Shown piece after piece: positions 15,265 to 26,217 of a stretch of 35,234 nucleotides of DNA (position 1 is its first letter; the number at the start of each line of letters is the position of its first letter). This stretch comes from Terriglobia bacterium. GTDB taxonomy: Bacteria; Acidobacteriota; Terriglobia; Terriglobales; SCQP01. Made by a program: the position numbers and the translations under genes. The notes beneath the pieces are model-generated. The model ran no database searches. It saw only the letters and a list, made by a program, of their open reading frames with translations, and was not told the DNA's origin. The DNA lies in the NCBI GenBank assembly GCA_021323595.1, contig JAJPKR010000044.1:1-35234 (forward strand), written 5' to 3'.

Positions 15265-15969
15265 TTAGCGCAAATACTCGGTGAAAAAGGCCTGGCGCAA
15301 AGCTTCGGCCTGGCGCGCGGCCGCGGCATTATAGGACGGGCGCTCGTCGTTGTTGAAGGCGTGATCGGCCCGCGCCCACAGTACCTCCACGAAATCCGCT
15401 TTGGCGGCGGTCAGGGCATCGCTGACAGCGCGGCGCTTGTCGGCGGTGATATGGCGATCGAGGCCGCCCCAAAACAGCAGCAGCGGGCAGCGGAGGCGCG
15501 GGGCGCGGTCCAGGAGCGCCTCGATGCCGCCGCCGTAATAGCTGACGGCGGCGGCCAAGGGGACGGCGCCGGCGGCGATATAGGCGACGCGGCCGCCCAT
15601 GCAGAAGCCGAGGGCGGCGATGGGCCGGCCGGGGAGCTCGGCCGCGAGGTGTTCGTAGGCGGCGCGAATATCGGCTTCCAGCCCCTCGACGGTGAGCTTT
15701 TGGACGTGCGCCATCACGGCGGGAAAATTGTCGTAACTGCCTTCGAAGCCGGCTGGGGCGCTGCGGTGAAACAATTCCGGCGCCAGGGCCAGGTAGCCCT
15801 CTCCGGCCAGCCGATCGGCGAGGCCGCGGATGTGCCCGGTCACGCCGAAGGCCTCCTGGAACAGCAAAACACCGCCCCGCGCCTTGCCCGCCGGACGGGC
15901 CAGGTAGGCCGCCATTTCGCCGCCATCGGCGACTTGCAGCAGCGGCTTAGCGGATCGCAGCTTGGCCAT
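15265..15969 (-). CDS. dienelactone hydrolase family protein
   Basis: This 234-residue alpha/beta hydrolase has the dienelactone hydrolase architecture. The nucleophile is Cys123 in GFCMGG, with Asp171 in WGGLDRHI and His203 in ADHAFNN completing the triad; Glu39 in LFQEAFG is the family's additional regulatory Glu. The N-terminal segment [13 protein letters not shown] is typical. The substrate is unknown; many members act on short lactones or esters outside chlorocatechol pathways, and no catechol genes are nearby. The first 23 nt overlap the 3' end of mnmG, so it is probably co-transcribed with it. A small GC hairpin (15244-15258) follows the stop. Confidence 0.9.
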
Positions 15970-17890
15970 CGCTCTTATGCACCTCGATCAGCACGTTCAA
16001 TAACGACAACGCCGCCGGCGTGACGCCGGGGATGCGCGCCGCCTGCCCCAGAGTCGCCGGCCGCACGCGGCTGAGCTTTTCTTTCATTTCCCGCGACAGG
16101 CCGGGAATGGGCTGATAGTCGAAATCTTCCGGAATCACTTTGCCCTCGGCGCGGCGCAGCTGCGCCATCTCGCGTTGCTGCTGCGCCAAATAGCCTTCAA
16201 ACTTGATTGCGGTCGCGACCGTTTTCCATTCCCAGCCGGCGGGGTCGGCCTGCCGCTGTTCCGCCAGCAGGGCGGGCAGGCGGCGCTCGAGCAGCGGCAA
16301 GAAATCCTCGAATTGAAACTCGGGCCGCTTCAGCAATTGTGCCGCCGTGGGGCGGTCGGGCAAAGCGCCGCCGGCCTTGGCGTGGAGCGCGGCGCCGGCG
16401 GCCGTGGCGGGATCGGGGCGCTCGGTGGCGAGAAATTCGCCGAGGGCGGCGATGCGCGCCTGCTTGGCGGTGAAGCGGCGCCAGCGCGCGTCGGTCACCA
16501 GGCCCACGCGCCGACCGTGCGGCGTCAGCCGCGCGTCGGCATTGTCGATGCGCAGGTGCAGGCGGAACTCGGCCCGCGAGGTGAACATGCGGTAGGGCTC
16601 GTCGGCGCCGCGGGCGATCAGATCGTCCACCAGGATGCCGATATAGGCCTCGGTGCGGCTCAAGTGCAGCGGCGCCTCGCCGCGCACTTGCAGCGCGGCG
16701 TTGATGCCGGCGAACTGGCCTTGGCAGGCGGCTTCTTCGTAGCCGGTGGTGCCGTTGATTTGTCCCGCCAAGAACAGCCCCGCGATCCGCTTGGTCTCGA
16801 GCGTGGGCCGCAACTCGGTCGGCTGCACGAAGTCGTATTCGATCGCGTAGCCGGGCCGCAGCATCTCCGCGCGCTCCAGCCCGGGGATGGAGGCGATCAT
16901 CGCCGCTTGCACGTCCACGGGCATGGAGGTGGACATGCCGTTGACGTAAATTTCATGCGTGTCGAGTCCCTCGGGCTCGAGAAAGATCTGGTGCCGCTCC
17001 TTGTCGGGGAACTTGACGATCTTGTCCTCGAAGCTGGGGCAGTAGCGCGGTCCGACGCCGGCGATTTGCCCGGAGTAGAGCGGGCTGCGGCCGAGATTTT
17101 CCAGGATCAATCGGCGGGTGACCGCGTTGCTATACGCGATGTGGCATTGAATCTGGGGCCGGACGATGCGATCGGTGAGGAACGAGAACGGGGTCGGCTC
17201 GGCGTCGCCCGGCTGCGGCTCGAAGTGCGCCCAGTCGATCGTGCGGCCGTCGAGGCGGGGCGGGGTGCCGGTTTTCAGCCGGCCGCATTCGAAGCCCAGC
17301 GCCCGCAGCGATTCGCCGAGCAAGTGCGAGGCCGGCTCGCCGCTGCGCCCCGCCGGATAGCGCGCTTCCCCGACGTGAATCAAGCCATTGAGAAAGGTTC
17401 CAGTGGTGATCACCACCGCTTGCGCGCCGATCTCGCGGCCGTCGCGCAGCCGCACGCCGGCCACGCGGCGGCGCCCCTGGGGAGCGGCGACGAGCATCAG
17501 CTCGACGGCTTCGCCCTGGCGAATCCGCAGATTGGGCTCGGCTTCCAGCCGCTGGCGCATGCGGATGCGGTATTGCTTCTTGTCTTGCTGCGCCCGCGGC
17601 GACCAGACCGCCGGGCCGCGGCTGCTGTTGAGCAGCCGGAACTGAATGCCGACCTCGTCGGCGACCTCGCCCATCAACCCGCCCAAGGCGTCAATCTCGC
17701 GCACCAGATGGCCCTTGGCAATGCCGCCAATGGCGGGATTGCACGACATTTGCGCGACCAGATCGAGGTTGAGGGTGAACAGGCCGGTGCGCAGGCCCAT
17801 GCGCGCGGCGGCGAACGCAGCTTCGCAGCCGGCGTGACCGGCGCCGATCACGACGACGTCATAGCGGTCCGCATAGGGCAGCACGGGCAT
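15947..17890 (-). CDS. mnmG: tRNA uridine-5-carboxymethylaminomethyl modification enzyme MnmG
   Basis: This is the FAD-dependent subunit of the MnmE-MnmG complex that makes cmnm5U34 in tRNA anticodons. It has 647 residues, slightly longer than average. The FAD-binding loop is [13 protein letters not shown] at about residues 13-25. Other motifs are [25 protein letters not shown] (split here only by eye), [13 protein letters not shown], the [13 protein letters not shown] segment and [10 protein letters not shown]. The C-terminal MnmE/tRNA-interacting helical domain ends [26 protein letters not shown] box lies 8 nt upstream of the ATG, and there is no Shine-Dalgarno. MnmE is not in the window. 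Confidence 0.97.
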
Positions 17891-17955: not shown

Positions 17956-18210
17956 ATGAACGGCGGCCGCCTCAGCGACGACGAAGCCATGCTCCAAGGA
18001 TTGCGCCAGGTCCGCGCGGCGCTCGCCGGAGAAGCCCCGGCGGAGCCGCCGCACCAGGCGCTGCGGATGATCGCCATGCGCTTTCCGGAGGAAGCCGAAA
18101 ATATCACCGCGCTCTGGATGCGCGCGCCCTCCGGCCATCGGCAGGAAATCGAGACGCTGCTGGCGGAGATCGAACGCCAGCACGCCGAAGACAGCGCGGA
18201 AGATGCTTAG
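17956..18210 (+). CDS. small acidic helical protein, unknown
   Basis: This 84-residue protein is not one I recognise. It is predicted almost wholly helical, acidic at the C-terminus, with no signal peptide or membrane segment. Codon use is GC-rich at third positions and like its neighbours, which supports it being real. It is transcribed divergently from mnmG across a 65-nt gap holding one -10-like box for each direction. Its TAG stop overlaps the stop of the opposite-strand small gene by 4 nt. Confidence 0.6.
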   Translation: MNGGRLSDDEAMLQGLRQVRAALAGEAPAEPPHQALRMIAMRFPEEAENITALWMRAPSGHRQEIETLLAEIERQHAEDSAEDA

Positions 18211-18461
18211 TCGTCGAGATGCGCCACGGATTCCACTTCGCGCGAAGACATGGGCTTGCTGAAGACGCGATAGCGAGACAACAAGGCGTGCTTGAGCGCC
18301 CACTGGATATCTTCATCCAGCGGCGATTTGCGACCATTGTCGCGGATGTATTTGTCCAACTTGCCGACATCCACCAGCCCAAGTCGAATGGTGCCTTCAC
18401 AAACAATGGCCTGGGTTCCCTGGGGGATGAGGGAGTACTTCATCAGCCGAGGTTTGCTCAT
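18207..18461 (-). CDS. small hypothetical protein in an AT-richer patch
   Basis: This 84-residue basic protein of unknown family begins MSKPRLMKYSLIPQGTQAIV. The first part looks beta-rich and the second helical (DEDIQWALKHALLSRYRVF). I took the ATG at 18461; a GTG at 18491 would add ten residues but lies inside a hairpin and also lacks a ribosome binding site. An extended -10 (TGATATAAT) lies about 64 nt upstream, giving a leader of about 57 nt. Base composition is lower in GC than the neighbours, so recent acquisition is possible. It is small and charged like a toxin-antitoxin or regulatory protein, but no partner or motif confirms that. Confidence 0.5.
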   Translation of the reverse strand: MSKPRLMKYSLIPQGTQAIVCEGTIRLGLVDVGKLDKYIRDNGRKSPLDEDIQWALKHALLSRYRVFSKPMSSREVESVAHLDD

Positions 18462-18482
18462 GGAAATTATGCCGTACCATCC

Positions 18483-18504
18483 GCAAGTCACCTGAAGGAC
18501 TTGC
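18483..18504 (-). promoter_or_regulatory. inverted repeat in 5' leader of the small gene
   Basis: GCAAGTC and GACTTGC form a perfect 7-bp inverted repeat with an 8-nt loop. It lies between the extended -10 box and the ATG at 18461. It could be an operator or an RNA hairpin that controls translation. Confidence 0.4.
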
Positions 18505-18524
18505 GCTTCCGAAATCGAAAATTC

Positions 18525-18533
18525 ATTATATCA
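18525..18533 (-). promoter_or_regulatory. extended -10 promoter, TGnTATAAT
   Basis: Reading the minus strand, TGATATAAT is a perfect extended -10 element, the best promoter match seen in this GC-rich window. The predicted start is near 18518. The -35 region (TGGATG at 16 nt) is weak, as extended -10 promoters allow. It points at the small gene ending at 18207. Confidence 0.5.
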
Positions 18534-18599
18534 CAGCAGTCGTCTTCATCCATTCACTTTTCGGAGCGGCTCATACCTTCTAACATATTGAAAAATCAA

Positions 18600-19616
18600 T
18601 TGGTTGATCGACAGGCGCGGGAGGGGAGTGCGGGGGCGCGGGAGCGCCGTGCGAGGCAGCAAAATTCCAAAAATGGGAGTGATGAGCCGAACTGTGACGT
18701 TTTGGGGCTGGGCAACAGTTGCTTGGACCAAATCCTTGCTCTAGACCCATTTCCGCAGCCGGGGACGAGTACGCCGGTCCTTTATTCCGTAACGGCGCCG
18801 GGCGGCCAAGTCGCGAGCGCGCTGGTGGCGGGCAGCCGATTGGGGCTGCGCACCCGCTTCGCGCTGCGCATCGGCGACGATGAGGCCGGGGAACAGCAGC
18901 GAGCGGCGCTCGAGCGGGAAGGCGTGGACTTGTCGCTGGCGCGCAAGCGCGCCGGCGTGCCCAGCGCGCGCGCGCTGATCCTGCTGGATGTGGCGCGCGG
19001 GCAGCGGGCGGTGGTCTGGAATACCGATACGCGCTTGGCGGTCGCGGCGGCGGAGGTTTCTCGTGAGATCGTCGCCCAAGCGCGCCTGCTCTACATTGAT
19101 GGAAAAGACGGCGAGGCATGCCTGGCCGCCAGCCGCTGGGCGCGCGCGCTCGGCCGGCCGGTGGTGTCCGATATCGACACGCCGACGCCGTGGAGCGCGG
19201 AACTGATCGGGCAAGTGAGCGATTGCATCTGCAACCGCGAATTCTTGCCCGCCTATACCGGGATCCAGGAACTTGAGCCCGCGCTGCGCAAGCTGGCGGG
19301 CGAGGGGCCGCGCATGGTTTGCGCCACGCTGGGGGCGGAGGGCGCGCTGGCCTGGACGGAAGGCCGCTGGCATCGTGCGCCGGGGTTTTCCGTCAACGTC
19401 GTGGATGACACCGGCGCCGGCGACGGTTTTCGCGCGGGCTATGTGTATGCGTTGCTGGCGGGCTGGCCCATCGAAGCACGGCTGGCGTTCGCCAATGCCA
19501 CGGCAGCCTGCGTATGCGAAACGATCGGCGCGGTCCCCTCGATGCCGACAATGGCGCAAGTGCGGCAGATGCTGGCGCGGTTTCACGCTTCCGGGCCATG
19601 GGAGCGCGCCTGCTGA
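18600..19616 (+). CDS. PfkB-family carbohydrate kinase
   Basis: This is a ribokinase-fold kinase that phosphorylates a sugar or nucleoside with ATP. The first beta strand is CDVLGLGNSCLDQIL, then APGGQVASALVAGSRLG (the substrate-binding glycine pair) and the C-terminal signature DDTGAGDGF at about residues 269-277, with the catalytic Asp in GAGD. It has about 300 core residues, normal for the family. The start is uncertain: the frame has no ATG or GTG near the fold, and TTG at 18600 is the best available codon although it has no ribosome binding site. It leads a same-strand cluster and its last 19 nt overlap the phosphodiesterase gene. The substrate is unknown. Confidence 0.85.
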   Translation: MVDRQAREGSAGARERRARQQNSKNGSDEPNCDVLGLGNSCLDQILALDPFPQPGTSTPVLYSVTAPGGQVASALVAGSRLGLRTRFALRIGDDEAGEQQRAALEREGVDLSLARKRAGVPSARALILLDVARGQRAVVWNTDTRLAVAAAEVSREIVAQARLLYIDGKDGEACLAASRWARALGRPVVSDIDTPTPWSAELIGQVSDCICNREFLPAYTGIQELEPALRKLAGEGPRMVCATLGAEGALAWTEGRWHRAPGFSVNVVDDTGAGDGFRAGYVYALLAGWPIEARLAFANATAACVCETIGAVPSMPTMAQVRQMLARFHASGPWERAC

Positions 19617-20395
19617 ATCCGCGCCACAAACGCGAGCACCCGGATGAACCCGGGCCGGCTGCGCCGCAGGCGCCCGCCGCGCGCGCGCCGCGGCGTCCGC
19701 CGTTGCTGGTCGGGCATCGCGGCCATCGCGTCGCCGCCTACGGCGAAGGCGAGAACACTTTAGCGGCCTTCGAGCGCGCCTTGGCCCTGGGTTGCGACGG
19801 GCTGGAACTCGATCTCCATTGCACGGCGGATGGGCACTTGGTGGTCCATCACGACCCGGAGATAGAAGGCGTCGCGATCGCCGCCAGCTCATACCGGCAG
19901 TTGCGGGGTCTGCGGCCGGTCCTGACCACGCTGCCGCGTGTATTGCGCCAATACGCCCACCGCTGCTGGCTGGATCTCGAAGTCAAAGCGCCGGGCTGCG
20001 AAGCGGCGCTGGTGGCCGCATTGCGCCGGCTGCCGCCAGCGCGCGGCTACGTGGTGAGCTCATTCGATCTGAAGGTGCTGGGCCGATTGGCGCGCAGCGC
20101 CCCCCAAGTGCCGCTCTGCCTGAACCTGCAGCGGCCGCTGCCCTGGCGCCGCTGGCGCGAACTTCCCCTCGCGGCGGTGGCGCCTCATGTGAGCTTCGCC
20201 CAGCGCTGGTATTTGGCGCGAATGCAGCGGCGCGGGCTGAAGATCGTGGTCTGGACCGTGAATCAGCCGCGCCGTATGCTGCAGCTCGCGCGCGCCGGTT
20301 GTGACGCCATCATCTCCGACGATCCGCGCCTTTTGGTGGAGACGCTGGGGGATCTTCGGGCCGCGCCGCCGCGCGCGCTCGCCGCGCATCGCTGA
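19598..20395 (+). CDS. glycerophosphodiester phosphodiesterase
   Basis: This is a TIM-barrel GDPD-family hydrolase of 265 residues from the ATG at 19598. The metal and catalytic motifs are His40-Arg41 in VGHRGHR, GENT at about 51-54, LELDLH with Glu70 and Asp72, and VVHHDP with His85. Later barrel strands give WLDLEVKAP, VVSSFD, IVVWTVNQ and CDAIISDDP, which are all expected. The first 35 residues are Pro/Arg/Ala-rich and precede the domain; there is no signal peptide, so it is probably cytoplasmic. It overlaps the PfkB kinase gene by 19 nt. In this cluster it may cleave a glycerophospho- or other phosphodiester intermediate rather than a lipid breakdown product (inference). Confidence 0.9.
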   Translation: MGARLLNPRHKREHPDEPGPAAPQAPAARAPRRPPLLVGHRGHRVAAYGEGENTLAAFERALALGCDGLELDLHCTADGHLVVHHDPEIEGVAIAASSYRQLRGLRPVLTTLPRVLRQYAHRCWLDLEVKAPGCEAALVAALRRLPPARGYVVSSFDLKVLGRLARSAPQVPLCLNLQRPLPWRRWRELPLAAVAPHVSFAQRWYLARMQRRGLKIVVWTVNQPRRMLQLARAGCDAIISDDPRLLVETLGDLRAAPPRALAAHR

Positions 20396-20438
20396 GGCGC
20401 AAACAAACTCGCCCGAAAGCTCTGCATCAGCTACAGGT

Positions 20439-21191
20439 GTGGAGGCGACCGCCGACCTGCAGCAGCGGGTGCACGAGCTTGGCGAATGGTTCCACAACCT
20501 CGACTTGGGCGGCATTCGCACCGCTCCGAATCATTTTTTGGGCGATTATCCCCGCGTGAAGTGGGAGCGGCTGCGGCCCGCTCTGCCCGCCGATCTCGCG
20601 GGCGCGTCGGTGCTGGATATCGGCTGCAACGCCGGGTTTTATTGCTTTGCCATGAAGCGGCTGGGCGCCGGCCGGGTGTTGGGCATCGACGTGGATGAGC
20701 GCTATCTGCGCCAAGCCGCCTTCGCGGCCGACTACTACGGCTTGCCGGTCGAGTTTCGCCGCCTGTCGGCCTACGACGTCGGCCAGATCGAGGAAACCTT
20801 CGATTACGTGCTCTTCATGGGCCTGTTCTATCACCTCCGATATCCGCTGCTGGCGCTGGATCTGGTGATGCCGCGCGTGGGGCGAAAGTTGATCTTCCAG
20901 ACCATGATTCGCGGCGCCGCGGCCGGCGCGCCGCCGCGCGATGACTACGATTTTTGGGATCCGCATCCGTTCCAGACGCCGGGCTTTCCGTGCATGTATT
21001 TCATCGAGAAGCGTTTTGCCGGCGACCCGACGAATTGGTGGATTCCCAACGCCGCGGCGGTGGAAGGCATGCTGGCGAGCGCGGGGCTGGCGATCGAGGC
21101 TCGTCCGGAAGCCGAGACTTGGATTTGCGCGCCTCGGCGCGAGCGCAGCCAGCCGCCGATCTGGGCGTTGGAATTGGAAGGAAGGCTGTAG
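20439..21191 (+). CDS. class I SAM-dependent methyltransferase
   Basis: This 250-residue Rossmann-fold methyltransferase has motif I at about residues 58-66 (VLDIGCNAG), the acidic strand GIDVDERYL and motif IV-like FDYVLFMGLFYHLRYPLLAL. The opening HELGEWFHNLDLGGIRTAP is distinctive and, from memory, resembles the TIGR04290 family, which travels with B12-type radical SAM and sugar genes. The start is a GTG at 20439, chosen because the family N-terminus follows directly; no good ribosome binding site supports it, and upstream in-frame sequence runs into the phosphodiesterase gene. A GTG epimerase start follows the stop by 1 nt. The acceptor is unknown; the neighbours suggest a sugar or glycan. 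Confidence 0.85.
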   Translation: MEATADLQQRVHELGEWFHNLDLGGIRTAPNHFLGDYPRVKWERLRPALPADLAGASVLDIGCNAGFYCFAMKRLGAGRVLGIDVDERYLRQAAFAADYYGLPVEFRRLSAYDVGQIEETFDYVLFMGLFYHLRYPLLALDLVMPRVGRKLIFQTMIRGAAAGAPPRDDYDFWDPHPFQTPGFPCMYFIEKRFAGDPTNWWIPNAAAVEGMLASAGLAIEARPEAETWICAPRRERSQPPIWALELEGRL

Positions 21192-21192
21192 C

Positions 21193-22191
21193 GTGCGCGT
21201 GCTGGTGACGGGTGGAGCGGGTTTCATCGGCGCCCACTTGTGCCGCCGCTGGCTGGAAGGCGGAGCGGCGGTCACGATCTTCGACAACTTCAGCCGCGCC
21301 GGCTCGGAGGAAAACTGGCAGCGGCTGCGCGCCGAGAGCGCGCCGGCGGCGGCGCTGGCGCTGCTGCGCGGGGACGTGCGCGACGCCGCCGGAGTGGCCG
21401 CGGCGGTGGCCGGCCAGGACGCGGTCTTTCATCTGGCGGCGCAAGTCGCGGTGACGACGTCGCTGGCGGAGCCGCGGCGCGACTTCGAAATCAACGCCGC
21501 CGGCACGCTCAACGTGCTCGAAGCCGCGCGCCGCGCGATTCGCCCGCCGTTCGTGCTCTACAGCTCCACCAACAAGGTGTATGGCGCGCTGCGGGGCGCG
21601 GCGCGGGCGACGGCGGTGGGCGAAGACCAGCCGCTCGATTTTCATTCCCCCTACGGCTGCTCGAAAGGCGCGGCCGACCAATACGTGCGCGACTATGCCC
21701 GCATCTTCGGCGTGCCGACGGCGGTGTTCCGCATGAGCTGCATCTACGGTCCGGGGCAAAACGGCAGCGAGGACCAAGGCTGGGTGGCGCACTTCGCCCG
21801 CGCCCTGCGCGCGGGCGAGGCGGTGACCATTTACGGCGACGGCGAGCAGACCCGCGACTTGCTGTTCATCGAGGATCTGGTGGAAGCGATGCTGCTCGCC
21901 TGGCGGCGGCGGGAGGGCTGCGCCGGGGCGGTCTTCAACATCGGCGGCGGCGCGGCCAACGTGCGCTCGCTACGCGAAGTGATGGCGGCGCTCGAGCGCC
22001 TGGTGGGGCGGCGGCTGGAGACGCGGGCGGCGGCGGCGCGGCCCGGCGATCAGCGGCACTATTGCAGCGACATCCGGCGTTTTCAAGCGCTCACCGGCTG
22101 GCAGCCGCGGGTGGGGGTGGCGGCCGGCCTGGCGCGCCTCGACCAGTGGTTCGCCGGGCAGCGCGCCACGGCGGAAGGCAGGGCGGCATGA
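21193..22191 (+). CDS. NAD-dependent epimerase/dehydratase, CDP-paratose 2-epimerase-like
   Basis: This is an extended short-chain dehydrogenase of 332 residues acting on a nucleotide sugar. NAD binding is at TGGAGFIGAHL (residues 6-16), and the catalytic Tyr154 and Lys158 are in SPYGCSKGAADQYV with Ser/Thr in YSSTNKVYG (123-131). The STNKVYG string and the RMSCIYGP...EDQGWVAHF region are what I associate with CDP-paratose/tyvelose 2-epimerases rather than UDP-glucose epimerases. The GTG at 21193 is set by GGAAGGAAGG 7 nt upstream and by the Rossmann strand beginning at residue 2. The stop overlaps the radical SAM gene by 4 nt. Confidence 0.88.
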   Translation: MRVLVTGGAGFIGAHLCRRWLEGGAAVTIFDNFSRAGSEENWQRLRAESAPAAALALLRGDVRDAAGVAAAVAGQDAVFHLAAQVAVTTSLAEPRRDFEINAAGTLNVLEAARRAIRPPFVLYSSTNKVYGALRGAARATAVGEDQPLDFHSPYGCSKGAADQYVRDYARIFGVPTAVFRMSCIYGPGQNGSEDQGWVAHFARALRAGEAVTIYGDGEQTRDLLFIEDLVEAMLLAWRRREGCAGAVFNIGGGAANVRSLREVMAALERLVGRRLETRAAAARPGDQRHYCSDIRRFQALTGWQPRVGVAAGLARLDQWFAGQRATAEGRAA

Positions 22192-23480
22192 AGTTCGCGC
22201 TGCTGCAGCCCCATTGGGACTTTGCCGGCTCCAGCTACTTCGGCTGCCGGGAACCTCATTTTCCCTTCGAGCTGCTCTTCGCCCGCCAGCAACTGGAAGC
22301 CGCCGGCCACGAATGCCTGCTGCTCGATGGGCATTTGGAGGCGATGACGGCGGAAGAGGCGGGCCGGCGCGTTCGCGGCTTCGATCCGGACTTCACCGTC
22401 GTCACCACCGCGCCCACGTATTTGTTTTGGCGCTGCCCGCAGCCGGAGCTGCGGCTGCCGCGGCAATGGCTGAGCGCTTGCCGCACGCGGGCGGTGCGCG
22501 TGGCCATCGGGCCGCACGGCTCGGCGACGCCGCGCGCGGCTGGGGAAAAGCTGGACTGCGACGTGGTGCTGCGCGGCGAGCCGGAGCAAGTGCTGCCGCG
22601 GCTGGCGGGCGGCGCCTGGGCGGAGATTCCGGGCTGCTGCTGGCGCGATGCGGCGGGCTGGCATCTCGACGCGCGCACCGCGGAGGCCGATCTCGCCGGC
22701 CTCGGCGCGCTCGACTTTCGCGACTATCCCTTGCCGCGCCGCGAGCATCGCCATCACGTATTTTCCGGCGCCGGGCGCGGCGCCGAATTGGAGTTCAGCC
22801 GCGGCTGCCCCTGGGGCTGCGACTTCTGCAACAAGACGCTGTTCCGCAACCGCCTGCGCCATCGCCGCGCCGAGGACGTGCTGGCCGAGGCCGAGGCGCT
22901 GGCCCGCGCCGGTTTCGATTACGTCTATTTCATCGACGAGATCTTCGGCTGCGGCAAGCAGCGCGCGGTCTTGCTCGAGGCCTTCGCGGGGTTGCCGCTG
23001 GCGATCGGTTTGCAGACGCGCATCGATCTGTGGGACGAAGAATCGCTCGCCGCCCTGGGCCGCGCCCACTGCGTTTCGCTCGAGTGCGGCATCGAATCCA
23101 TCACGCCGGCCGGCCGCGCCGCCTGGAACAAAGGCTGCCGGCTCAGCACCGAGCGCATCGCCGAGCTGCTGCTGGCCGCCCGGCGGCACATCCCTTGGGT
23201 GCAGGCCAACCTCATCGCCGACGACGAGGAAGATCTCGCGGCCACGGAAGCGTGGCGGCGCGAGTTGATCGCGCGCGGGGTATGGGTGTCGCGGCCGGTG
23301 CCCGCCTATCCGTTCCCCGGCAGCCCGCTCTATGCCAGGCTGTTCGGCCCGCCCGACGACCTGGCCTGGGAGCGCGCGCACGGCCACTATCTCGCCCTCA
23401 ACGACCGCCGCGGGTACTACAGCGACGTGCAAGACTCCGCTCCCGCGCCGCTCAGCCGCCTGGAAAATTCCGCCGGCTAG
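22188..23480 (+). CDS. B12-binding-domain radical SAM protein
   Basis: This 430-residue enzyme of the B12-type radical SAM class has an N-terminal Rossmann-like cobalamin domain (about 1-140) and a TIM-barrel radical SAM domain. The 4Fe-4S cysteines are C207, C211 and C214 in RGCPWGCDFCNK. LEFSRG before them and the VYFIDEIFG, LQTRIDL and SLECGIES strands after them fit the family. The classical DxHxxG cobalamin motif is not present, as in many members, so B12 binding is not certain. It ends the five-gene cluster and is coupled to the epimerase gene. Likely chemistry is radical methylation or rearrangement of an unactivated carbon; the substrate is unknown. From memory it resembles TIGR04295. 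Confidence 0.88.
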   Translation: MKFALLQPHWDFAGSSYFGCREPHFPFELLFARQQLEAAGHECLLLDGHLEAMTAEEAGRRVRGFDPDFTVVTTAPTYLFWRCPQPELRLPRQWLSACRTRAVRVAIGPHGSATPRAAGEKLDCDVVLRGEPEQVLPRLAGGAWAEIPGCCWRDAAGWHLDARTAEADLAGLGALDFRDYPLPRREHRHHVFSGAGRGAELEFSRGCPWGCDFCNKTLFRNRLRHRRAEDVLAEAEALARAGFDYVYFIDEIFGCGKQRAVLLEAFAGLPLAIGLQTRIDLWDEESLAALGRAHCVSLECGIESITPAGRAAWNKGCRLSTERIAELLLAARRHIPWVQANLIADDEEDLAATEAWRRELIARGVWVSRPVPAYPFPGSPLYARLFGPPDDLAWERAHGHYLALNDRRGYYSDVQDSAPAPLSRLENSAG

Positions 23481-23724: not shown

Positions 23725-26217
23725 CTACCAGAAGAAATCCAGCTCGGGGACGAAATAGCGGTAACGGTTCGCGAGAAACGTGCCGAAGGCGGGGTCGGCG
23801 AGATTGGCTTGGACGTCGGCGGGGTTGAAGTGGTTGGTGACGTTATAGACGTCGAAGCCCCACTGCAAGGTGTAACGGTGGAGCAGCCGGGTGTCATGCA
23901 GCAGCGTTAAATCGAGGGAGAAGAACGCCGGGAAACGGTGGCTGTCGCGGGGCCCGACAAAATTCAGATTGGCGTCCACGACCGAATAGGGGAAGCCGCT
24001 ATGCCAGTCGAGGATGGGCGCCAGCGTGGTCGCCTGGGGGAGGCGCAGCACGCCCCAGGTGATCCAGCGATTGGGGACATCCGACGGCAGCGGGCCGTAT
24101 TCGTTCGGGCGAATGATGGGATGGGGAAAATCCCCGAAGAAATAGTCGTAGTTGTTCAAGTCGCCGTGCGTGCGGCTGTGCACGAACGAGCTGTTGATGG
24201 CTTGCCCGGCCAAATTGATCTTGGCGGTGACCACCGCTTTGGAAAAGCGCATTTGGCCGCTGTTGCTGAGGGTGAGAAAGTACTGGCCGGGCCCGCCGGC
24301 GAGCGGATCCACGATGAACTGCCGCCGGGTATGGCTTTGCAGGAAGCTGGCATCGAGCAGCAGATGCGAGCCGAGGCGGCGCTCGGCCTCGATGTTCCAG
24401 GTGAGGTTGAACGGCAAGAAATTGAAATCGCCGCCCGGCAGAAATTGGTTGGGACTGGGTTCGGCGGTGAAGTCGGTCAGAATGTTGGTGAAGGGCTCGA
24501 CCGCGACGATGCCGGTGCCAGCGGGATCGAAGTAAGTGACGGTTTGCCGCGGATATTCGCGAAAGACGCCGACATCGAGGGGCAGCCGGTCGTAGAACAT
24601 CCCGGCACCGCCGCGCAACACGAAGCCGGCCGGCGCCTGCCAGGAAAAGCCGGCGCGCGGGGCGAGGTGAACGGCGTCGGAGATGGTTTCGCTCTCGTAA
24701 CGCAGGCCCAAGTCGAGCGCCAGGCGCGCGTCCGGCGCCCATTGATCTTCGGCATAGGCGTTCCACGCGGTATTCGTGATGGCCAGCAGCGAGCCGCCGG
24801 TGAACTGCACCGTTTGGCTGAGGGTGCCGTCGGGACGAAAGACCTGCACCGGCCGGCCGAGGAAGCTGCCGCGGATCGCGCTGGCGGCGGCGCCGCCGCC
24901 GATCTTCCATTGCTGCGAGCCATGCCAGTGCGTCTGGGCCGGCAGGTAGGCCGATTCCCAGGCCACGCGCCAGGCCGCACGGCGCTGGGTATTGAAGAAG
25001 CTGCCCTGCGCGCCGGAACTGCGCAAGATCATGGGGCCGTTGCCCTCGCCCCAGACATCGTCCACGAAGTGCTCCCAATTGAACGTGTTCTGCCACACCG
25101 CCCCGGTGGCGGAGCCGTGGCGCTCGATCAGGTTCAAGCTCAGGTTGCGGCGGCGCAGATCGGGCGCGGCGGGCTGCGGCAGAAAGACATCGAGATGAGC
25201 GTGCTCGACGTGGCGGGGCGCGTAGTTCGCGGTCAGGGTCACCAGGTCGCGCGGGGAAACCACCCAGTCGAGCTGGGTGAAGGAGTCGCCGCCTTCGGTC
25301 TTGCTGATGTTGAAGGGAAAGGGCAGGCCGCGGATCGGCGTCTTGTCGAGATCGTAGTTGACGCCTTGCGATAGATAGAGTCGCCGGGGCAGCAGCGGGC
25401 CGGAAACCAGCAGCCGCGGCGTGATCCCGCGAAAGCCGAAGAGGGTGCCGCCGCGAAAGCGGGGCTCGGGAAAGAAATCGTTGACCTCGAAGCGCCATTC
25501 ATCGCCGCCGCCGCGGGTGAGCACCTTGGTGACGCCGCCGGTGAACTGGCCGTATTCGGCGAGATACGGCGCCTGATAGACCTGCACTCGCCGCACGACG
25601 TCGAGCGGCAAATTGACCGAGAAGTCGCCGGTGGCCGGATCGCTGGCATCGGCGCCGTTGATCAGCATGGCGTTCTCGTTCTCGCGGGCGCCATTGATGT
25701 TGATGCGGCCGTCGGGCGTGCGCACCACCCCGGGCACCAGCGGCAGCGCCTGCTGCAGTTGCTGCCCGGGCACGGGCAGGCGGCGCACCGTCGCCGCCTC
25801 CAACGATTGCGCCGGCGAGGAGGCGCCTTGCGCGGCTTCCGGCGAGGCGGTGACGTTCACGGTCTGGCTCACCGCCGAGCGCTTGGCGAATTGCAGGGCG
25901 ACCTCGAGCGCGCGCGGCGCCAGCACCCGGATCGGCTGCACCACCGGGAAGTAGTCCTTCTTGGCGGCGGTGAGCAAATAGGAGCCGCTTTGCACGCTGC
26001 CGAAATTCACCACGCCTTGCGCGTTGCTCGTGCCCGCGGCCACGGCGGCGCCGCCGGAGTTGAGGCTGACGCGCACGCCGCGTAGGGGGTGATGGGCGGT
26101 GTCCGTGCAAGTGACATGCACCAGCGCCGTCGCCAACACCTGTCCCGGCGACGAGCCGGCGAGGCAGGCCAAAAGCACGGTGAGCGCGAACCAGAACCGA
26201 CCGCATTGCCGGGCCAT
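23725..26217 (-). CDS. TonB-dependent receptor with carboxypeptidase-regulatory-like N-domain
   Basis: This is an outer-membrane receptor, 830 residues, of the Oar-like kind abundant in Acidobacteriota. A signal peptide (about 1-29) is followed by a regulatory-like beta-sandwich (VHVTCTDTAHHPLRGVRVSL to about residue 112), then the plug (LPLVPGVVRTPDGRININGARENENAMLINGADASDP) and a beta barrel. It ends with aromatic FVPELDFFW, suiting recognition by the BAM machinery. It is shorter than the 1000-1200 residues common in this family, mainly in the barrel loops. No TonB box is obvious. The substrate is unknown. It stands alone on its strand between the sugar cluster and the rlpA pair. Confidence 0.92.
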   Translation of the reverse strand: MARQCGRFWFALTVLLACLAGSSPGQVLATALVHVTCTDTAHHPLRGVRVSLNSGGAAVAAGTSNAQGVVNFGSVQSGSYLLTAAKKDYFPVVQPIRVLAPRALEVALQFAKRSAVSQTVNVTASPEAAQGASSPAQSLEAATVRRLPVPGQQLQQALPLVPGVVRTPDGRININGARENENAMLINGADASDPATGDFSVNLPLDVVRRVQVYQAPYLAEYGQFTGGVTKVLTRGGGDEWRFEVNDFFPEPRFRGGTLFGFRGITPRLLVSGPLLPRRLYLSQGVNYDLDKTPIRGLPFPFNISKTEGGDSFTQLDWVVSPRDLVTLTANYAPRHVEHAHLDVFLPQPAAPDLRRRNLSLNLIERHGSATGAVWQNTFNWEHFVDDVWGEGNGPMILRSSGAQGSFFNTQRRAAWRVAWESAYLPAQTHWHGSQQWKIGGGAAASAIRGSFLGRPVQVFRPDGTLSQTVQFTGGSLLAITNTAWNAYAEDQWAPDARLALDLGLRYESETISDAVHLAPRAGFSWQAPAGFVLRGGAGMFYDRLPLDVGVFREYPRQTVTYFDPAGTGIVAVEPFTNILTDFTAEPSPNQFLPGGDFNFLPFNLTWNIEAERRLGSHLLLDASFLQSHTRRQFIVDPLAGGPGQYFLTLSNSGQMRFSKAVVTAKINLAGQAINSSFVHSRTHGDLNNYDYFFGDFPHPIIRPNEYGPLPSDVPNRWITWGVLRLPQATTLAPILDWHSGFPYSVVDANLNFVGPRDSHRFPAFFSLDLTLLHDTRLLHRYTLQWGFDVYNVTNHFNPADVQANLADPAFGTFLANRYRYFVPELDFFW

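Follow-up and report, generated by a model that had tools for sequence, protein, structure and literature searches.

Five intact, tightly packed genes on one strand, reading from a PfkB-family kinase to a radical S-adenosylmethionine (SAM) protein, raise the question of what they build together and whether they build it alone. They lie at 18.6-23.5 kb of the window, by which we mean the whole stretch of 35,234 nucleotides analysed here (contig JAJPKR010000044.1, from the Terriglobia bacterium assembly GCA_021323595.1). An earlier note, made from the sequence alone, had proposed that the five genes form one self-contained pathway for an unusual methylated sugar or a glycerol-phosphate-linked glycan. 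The idea of one sugar-tailoring pathway is supported by our analysis, but its self-contained five-gene version is not, since glycosyltransferases, a second short-chain dehydrogenase/reductase (SDR) and a nucleotidyltransferase lie at other loci of the same genome. We consider it probable that three of the genes, encoding a methyltransferase, an extended SDR and a B12-binding-domain radical SAM protein (hereafter the trio), do the sugar tailoring for a conserved oligosaccharide-assembly system whose genes are divided here between three or more loci of the genome.

Profile hidden Markov model searches identify two members of the trio as belonging to curated families. TIGR04290 (cut-off 300) is matched by the methyltransferase with 342.7 bits and TIGR04295 (cut-off 400) by the radical SAM protein with 561 bits, in both cases over the full profile length, which confirms the two families that the earlier note had named. 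Both (meth_Rta_06860 and B12_rSAM_oligo, respectively) are uncharacterised NCBIfam families, and a search of the papers available to us found none naming TIGR04290, TIGR04295 or Rta_06860. The nearest characterised relative of the methyltransferase by sequence, a distant one sharing its methyltransferase fold, is the tRNA carboxymethyltransferase CmoB; however, the window protein stays below the CmoB cut-offs (69 of 275 and 65 of 209 bits), and when the CmoB residues Lys91, Tyr200 and Arg315 (PMC7496830) were used for a carboxy-SAM comparison, only the Tyr200 region aligned, Lys91 and Arg315 falling outside the alignable stretch. The active-site motifs of the trio are intact, with DIGCNAG in the methyltransferase, TNK and YxxxK in the SDR, and CxxxCxxC in the radical SAM protein, where the three cysteines (C207, C211, C214) are invariant in 33 homologues.

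To see these families in their usual surroundings, we fetched 80 loci from other genomes with flanks of up to 10 kb and analysed them by clustering, family scans and mapping of the window proteins. The usual cluster has the order F5 - SDR2 - SDR - radical SAM - GT4 - three CgeB-like glycosyltransferases, where F5 is a conserved TIM-barrel protein and SDR2 the second SDR; within about 10 kb there is usually the methyltransferase, and often a nucleotidyltransferase, a HAD phosphatase and the unknown protein F10. This arrangement occurs in Acidobacteriota, Alphaproteobacteria, Myxococcota, Nitrospirota and cyanobacteria, and the conserved unit within it is methyltransferase-(SDR)-radical SAM. Most TIGR04290 and TIGR04295 loci hold both families in one cluster with glycosyltransferases, as does the locus of the cultured Terriglobus albidus DSM 26559 (L042), whereas in the window's genome the cluster is split and the kinase and phosphodiesterase genes precede the trio. 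A literature search for CgeB with radical SAM clusters gave nothing relevant among the papers listed. SDR2 itself (L045:7757-8878 and relatives) contains an insertion with four cysteines, CGDCG...CDACNG, which has the look of a small metal-binding module.

F5 deserves separate mention. It has WNEPN at residue 8 and a possible nucleophile, Glu112, and its N-terminal part matches positions 67-195 of the glycosyl hydrolase profile PF11790. In searches with the predicted structure, the GH10 and GH2 matches from Foldseek cover about half the model, and VIA-align returns many TIM barrels at Z 12-14, which is not specific. The strand order of the model suggests a circularly permuted glycoside hydrolase of clan GH-A; the C-terminal half, searched alone against Pfam, matches no relevant family, and the permutation therefore stays a suggestion. 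The copy in the window's genome is L147:5994-6926 (G000:C63:55993-56925), and relatives are found in about 45 loci.

Where, then, are the partners of the trio in the window's genome? A search for the CgeB-like family, together with mapping, places F5-SDR2-GT4-GT-GT-GT on contig C63, which is the usual order minus the SDR and the radical SAM gene. The nucleotidyltransferase gene is found by itself, at C34:39968-40663. The C63 half-cluster is present in all 13 family relatives, in places cut by contig ends, and lacks SDR2 in genus g169. Because the glycosyltransferases are on other contigs, a reading based on the neighbourhood only would miss half of the pathway. We followed the other half through 14 genomes from six genera of the window's GTDB family: 11 have the radical SAM gene and 12 the methyltransferase, and each genome in which one was missed is less than 90% complete. 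Several of the genomes compared in this work are incomplete, so that absences are provisional. No glycosyltransferase was found beside the methyltransferase/radical SAM loci of this family. The layout is PfkB-GDPD-methyltransferase-SDR-radical SAM in the window's genus, GDPD being the glycerophosphodiester phosphodiesterase gene; methyltransferase-SDR-radical SAM in g168, g169 and g170; GDPD-methyltransferase-SDR followed by the contig end in g171; and GDPD-methyltransferase-radical SAM in g172, preceded by PfkB in two genomes (L140, L142). The recurrence of the methyltransferase-SDR-radical SAM order in sister genera indicates that the grouping is more than chance. Moreover, the split looks derived within the window's family, because the radical SAM tree unites this family in a clade with support 95/99, next to the other Acidobacteriota, and clustered loci fall on both sides of it.

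The genes of the system also co-occur where they are scattered. Among 298 genomes of the window's order, TIGR04290 is carried by 66, TIGR04295 by 65, F5 by 68 and the nucleotidyltransferase by 64, and all four markers, clustered or scattered, are present in 57 of the 71 genomes having any. Methyltransferase, radical SAM protein and F5 co-occur in 61 genomes, 37 of which hold all three within 25 kb; nine, all from the window's family, keep the methyltransferase and radical SAM gene together with F5 apart, while ten pair the methyltransferase with F5 and five the radical SAM gene with F5 ("apart" includes different contigs, and some distances in fragmented genomes are undetermined). In g2, g4 and g9, some genomes of the genus are carriers and others are not, an observation in favour of gain or loss of the genes jointly and more than once. 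For the two curated families, whose function is unknown, the analysis thus supplies a concrete partner set, four genes in those 57 genomes, even where they are scattered.

How could such a system work? The observations cover the identities of the genes, their intact motifs, the split layout and the co-occurrence; each reaction is deduced from relatives, and the order of the reactions and the product are likewise proposals. The RmlA-like nucleotidyltransferase (locus C, contig C34) would activate a sugar 1-phosphate, after which SDR2 (locus B, contig C63) and the SDR of the window may alter the stereochemistry of the nucleoside diphosphate (NDP)-sugar, the latter by C2 epimerisation through a transient C2 oxidation. 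The B12/radical SAM enzyme would methylate an unactivated carbon of the sugar, the TIGR04290 enzyme would O-methylate the sugar, and the GT4 and three CgeB-like glycosyltransferases of locus B would build the chain, which F5 may trim or transfer. The roles of PfkB and GDPD would be accessory and local, perhaps in the supply or recycling of a phosphorylated building block. The nucleotide of the NDP-sugar is uncertain, as relatives of the epimerase use cytidine diphosphate (CDP)-sugars and the nucleotidyltransferase is RmlA-like.

The part proposed for the window's SDR is drawn from its nearest relatives by sequence, the CDP-tyvelose/paratose 2-epimerases; the earlier note had already likened it to a CDP-paratose epimerase. 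Its best solved relatives are the CDP-tyvelose 2-epimerases TaTyvE (9RL0, 249 bits) and that of Salmonella (1ORR, 222 bits), the next SDR scoring 153 bits, and its closest relative among characterised enzymes acts on CDP-glucose by inverting C2 (PMC13098431). Using the active-site residues given in that 2026 structure paper, we found ten of the eleven positions checked to be kept: all 79 sequences compared, the window's included, have equivalents of TNK, Tyr164, Lys168, Gln205, Arg237 and Arg299, and in the same 79 the VAM segment reads VAV. The hairpin loop of TaTyvE (Gly132-Asn150) is much shorter in the window protein.

For the radical SAM protein, which scores 47 bits against PF04055, an AlphaFold model (predicted local distance difference test score, pLDDT, 91) finds TsrM, MgmA, AprD4, OxsB, TokK and CysS as its first fold matches, and the matches to cobalamin enzymes are full-length. 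The presence of AprD4 in this list, a protein that sequence (48 bits) as well as fold puts among the nearest solved relatives, brings in the main rival explanation, namely that radical SAM protein and SDR form an AprD4/AprD3-like deoxygenation pair, in which diol dehydration and ketone reduction would give a deoxysugar and not a C-methyl sugar. AprD4 works on a sugar together with a reductase (PMC5461906), and here the SDR gene shares 4 nt with the radical SAM gene, the two being adjacent in most loci. We nevertheless regard this pairing as unlikely. The likeness is in the radical SAM domain and the neighbouring SDR, yet the AprD4 model NF033070 gives 43.9 bits against a cut-off of 500; the SDR keeps the catalytic and substrate-binding residues of a 2-epimerase except for the change of VAM to VAV; g172 keeps the radical SAM gene with no adjacent SDR; and the nearest fold, TsrM, is a methylase.

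Sugar C-methylation by the radical SAM protein, as we prefer to read it, has precedents among B12/radical SAM enzymes in GenD1 and GenK (PMC5461906) and in MoeK5 (PMC8992657). The comparison is one of cofactor class and sugar setting, made by analogy and not by sequence, and those enzymes belong to antibiotic clusters, in contrast to the split oligosaccharide pathway suggested for the window. If a B12-made C-methyl sugar is indeed produced, this would be a new setting for that chemistry outside antibiotic clusters, and its hosts would include common soil Acidobacteriota, Bradyrhizobium and Methylobacterium. It is tempting to speculate further, although we hold this bolder version with considerable doubt, that these genes represent a widespread, unstudied glycan pathway in which a B12/radical SAM enzyme, together with a circularly permuted GH-A-like F5, builds a carbon-branched sugar unit, the guild being kept despite variously broken clusters.

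What role is left for the two leading genes? Their identities are as the earlier note proposed, both proteins passing their Pfam cut-offs (PfkB 142 bits against PF00294, GDPD 96 bits against PF03009) with catalytic motifs in place (DDTGAGD in PfkB; GHRG, ENT, ELD, H and LEVK in GDPD). The best solved relatives of PfkB are E. coli ribokinase (94 bits) and sulfofructose kinase (87 bits), and no NCBIfam equivalog cut-off is reached (ribokinase 118 of 300, IolC 110 of 300 bits); no narrower family is passed by GDPD, whose nearest solved relative is 1v8e, with the catalytic motifs aligned. The self-contained version, in which GDPD would release, PfkB phosphorylate and the trio tailor a glycerol-phosphate-linked methylated sugar, draws on the operon-like junctions and on the family loci: PfkB adjoins GDPD in two of the six genera, GDPD adjoins the methyltransferase in three (g1, g171 and g172), and four of the five genes, PfkB-GDPD-methyltransferase-radical SAM, are repeated in g172 (L140 and L142), the co-localisation of at least four that the earlier note had named as support for one pathway. 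Against it, just one of the 80 fetched loci places the two genes close to the trio (E 1e-8; some contigs are short), GDPD orthologues lie on a contig other than that of the trio in g168 and g170, a search of g169 found none, and the constant partners of the trio are at other loci. We therefore judge the five-gene pathway quite improbable: PfkB and GDPD are a local addition and not the pathway core, and they may serve the pathway, the evidence for this being local and weak.

In g170, the PfkB orthologue is likewise on a contig other than that of the trio, and it lies within an inositol-catabolism cluster (L161:1-15757, relative G301, contig C2) containing iolC-, iolD-, iolE- and iolG-like genes and a methylmalonate-semialdehyde dehydrogenase gene. 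This location counts against the five-gene pathway and is one of the points that speak for an inositol core, with PfkB as an inositol kinase, GDPD acting on glycerophosphoinositol and GT4 glycosylating inositol phosphate as MshA does. The best solved relative of GT4 is indeed MshA-type, a weak match at 28 bits, and Alphaproteobacterial clusters add a mycothiol-type inositol-3-phosphate synthase and a histidine phosphatase. However, the synthase was found in none of the 298 genomes of the window's order, on which ground inositol as the core in Acidobacteriota was rejected, and PfkB scores best as a ribokinase, not as IolC; overall, we consider an inositol core very improbable. In the Alphaproteobacterial versions, as in Bradyrhizobium sp. 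RP6 (L087:1101-2818), the inositol-3-phosphate synthase (518 bits, cut-off 638) and the histidine phosphatase stand first.

Returning to the split oligosaccharide-assembly system, several observations weigh against it. No flippase, polymerase or acceptor is known for the system, so that an oligosaccharide is what we infer the product to be. The B12-binding profile PF02310 gives the radical SAM protein 19.7 bits, below its cut-off of 32.1, so that cobalamin use is putative. The C34 nucleotidyltransferase looks thymidylyl-type, whereas from the nearest epimerase one would expect a cytidylyl-type enzyme. The g172 genomes (L139, L140, L142) have no epimerase-like SDR between the methyltransferase and radical SAM genes, and their best SDRs elsewhere are only 36-39% identical to that of the window. 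Finally, Fisher tests of the co-occurrence gave p of about 1e-50 or less with related genomes treated as independent, and these values therefore overstate the case.

The coordinates of the five genes, all with open frames by sequence reading and profile check, are collected below. Their junctions are as the earlier note described: a 19-nt overlap between pfkB and the GDPD gene if the latter starts at ATG 19598, a 43-nt gap before the methyltransferase gene, a 1-nt gap before the SDR gene and a 4-nt ATGA overlap before the radical SAM gene.

Features of the five-gene unit in the window (positions in nucleotides)
Feature	Position	Strand	Start, family or remark
Possible upstream regulatory region of the five-gene unit	18500..18600	+	A+T-richer dip
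PfkB-family carbohydrate kinase, ribokinase-like	18699..19616	+	Start uncertain: TTG 18600 or TTG 18702
GDPD-family hydrolase (glycerophosphodiester phosphodiesterase)	19598..20395	+	ATG 19598; PF03009
TIGR04290-family SAM methyltransferase	20439..21191	+	GTG 20439
Extended SDR, CDP-tyvelose/paratose 2-epimerase-like	21193..22191	+	GTG 21193
TIGR04295-family B12-binding-domain radical SAM protein	22188..23480	+	ATG 22188

For pfkB, the one gene of the five with a doubtful end, no in-frame ATG or GTG was found near the conserved beginning of the protein, where there are only TTG codons. The upstream TTG adds an N-terminal stretch with no visible homology, and the downstream one would fit the L142 homologue, which opens VIVLGLGNSCLD at GTG. 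The G+C fraction drops to about 0.61 at 18000-18500 and to 0.62 at 18500-19000, the surrounding sequence having about 0.69, and a promoter scan of the five-gene region returned no promoter-like site on the + strand and no consensus sigma-70 promoter. Both flanking genes are on the opposite strand, at 15947-17890 and 23725-26217; from their translations, we take them to be mnmG-like and TonB-receptor-like, respectively. Some 16 kb upstream of the cluster, at 255-2539 of the window, genes for a Kdo transferase (PF04413) and LpxK (PF02606) lie next to each other.

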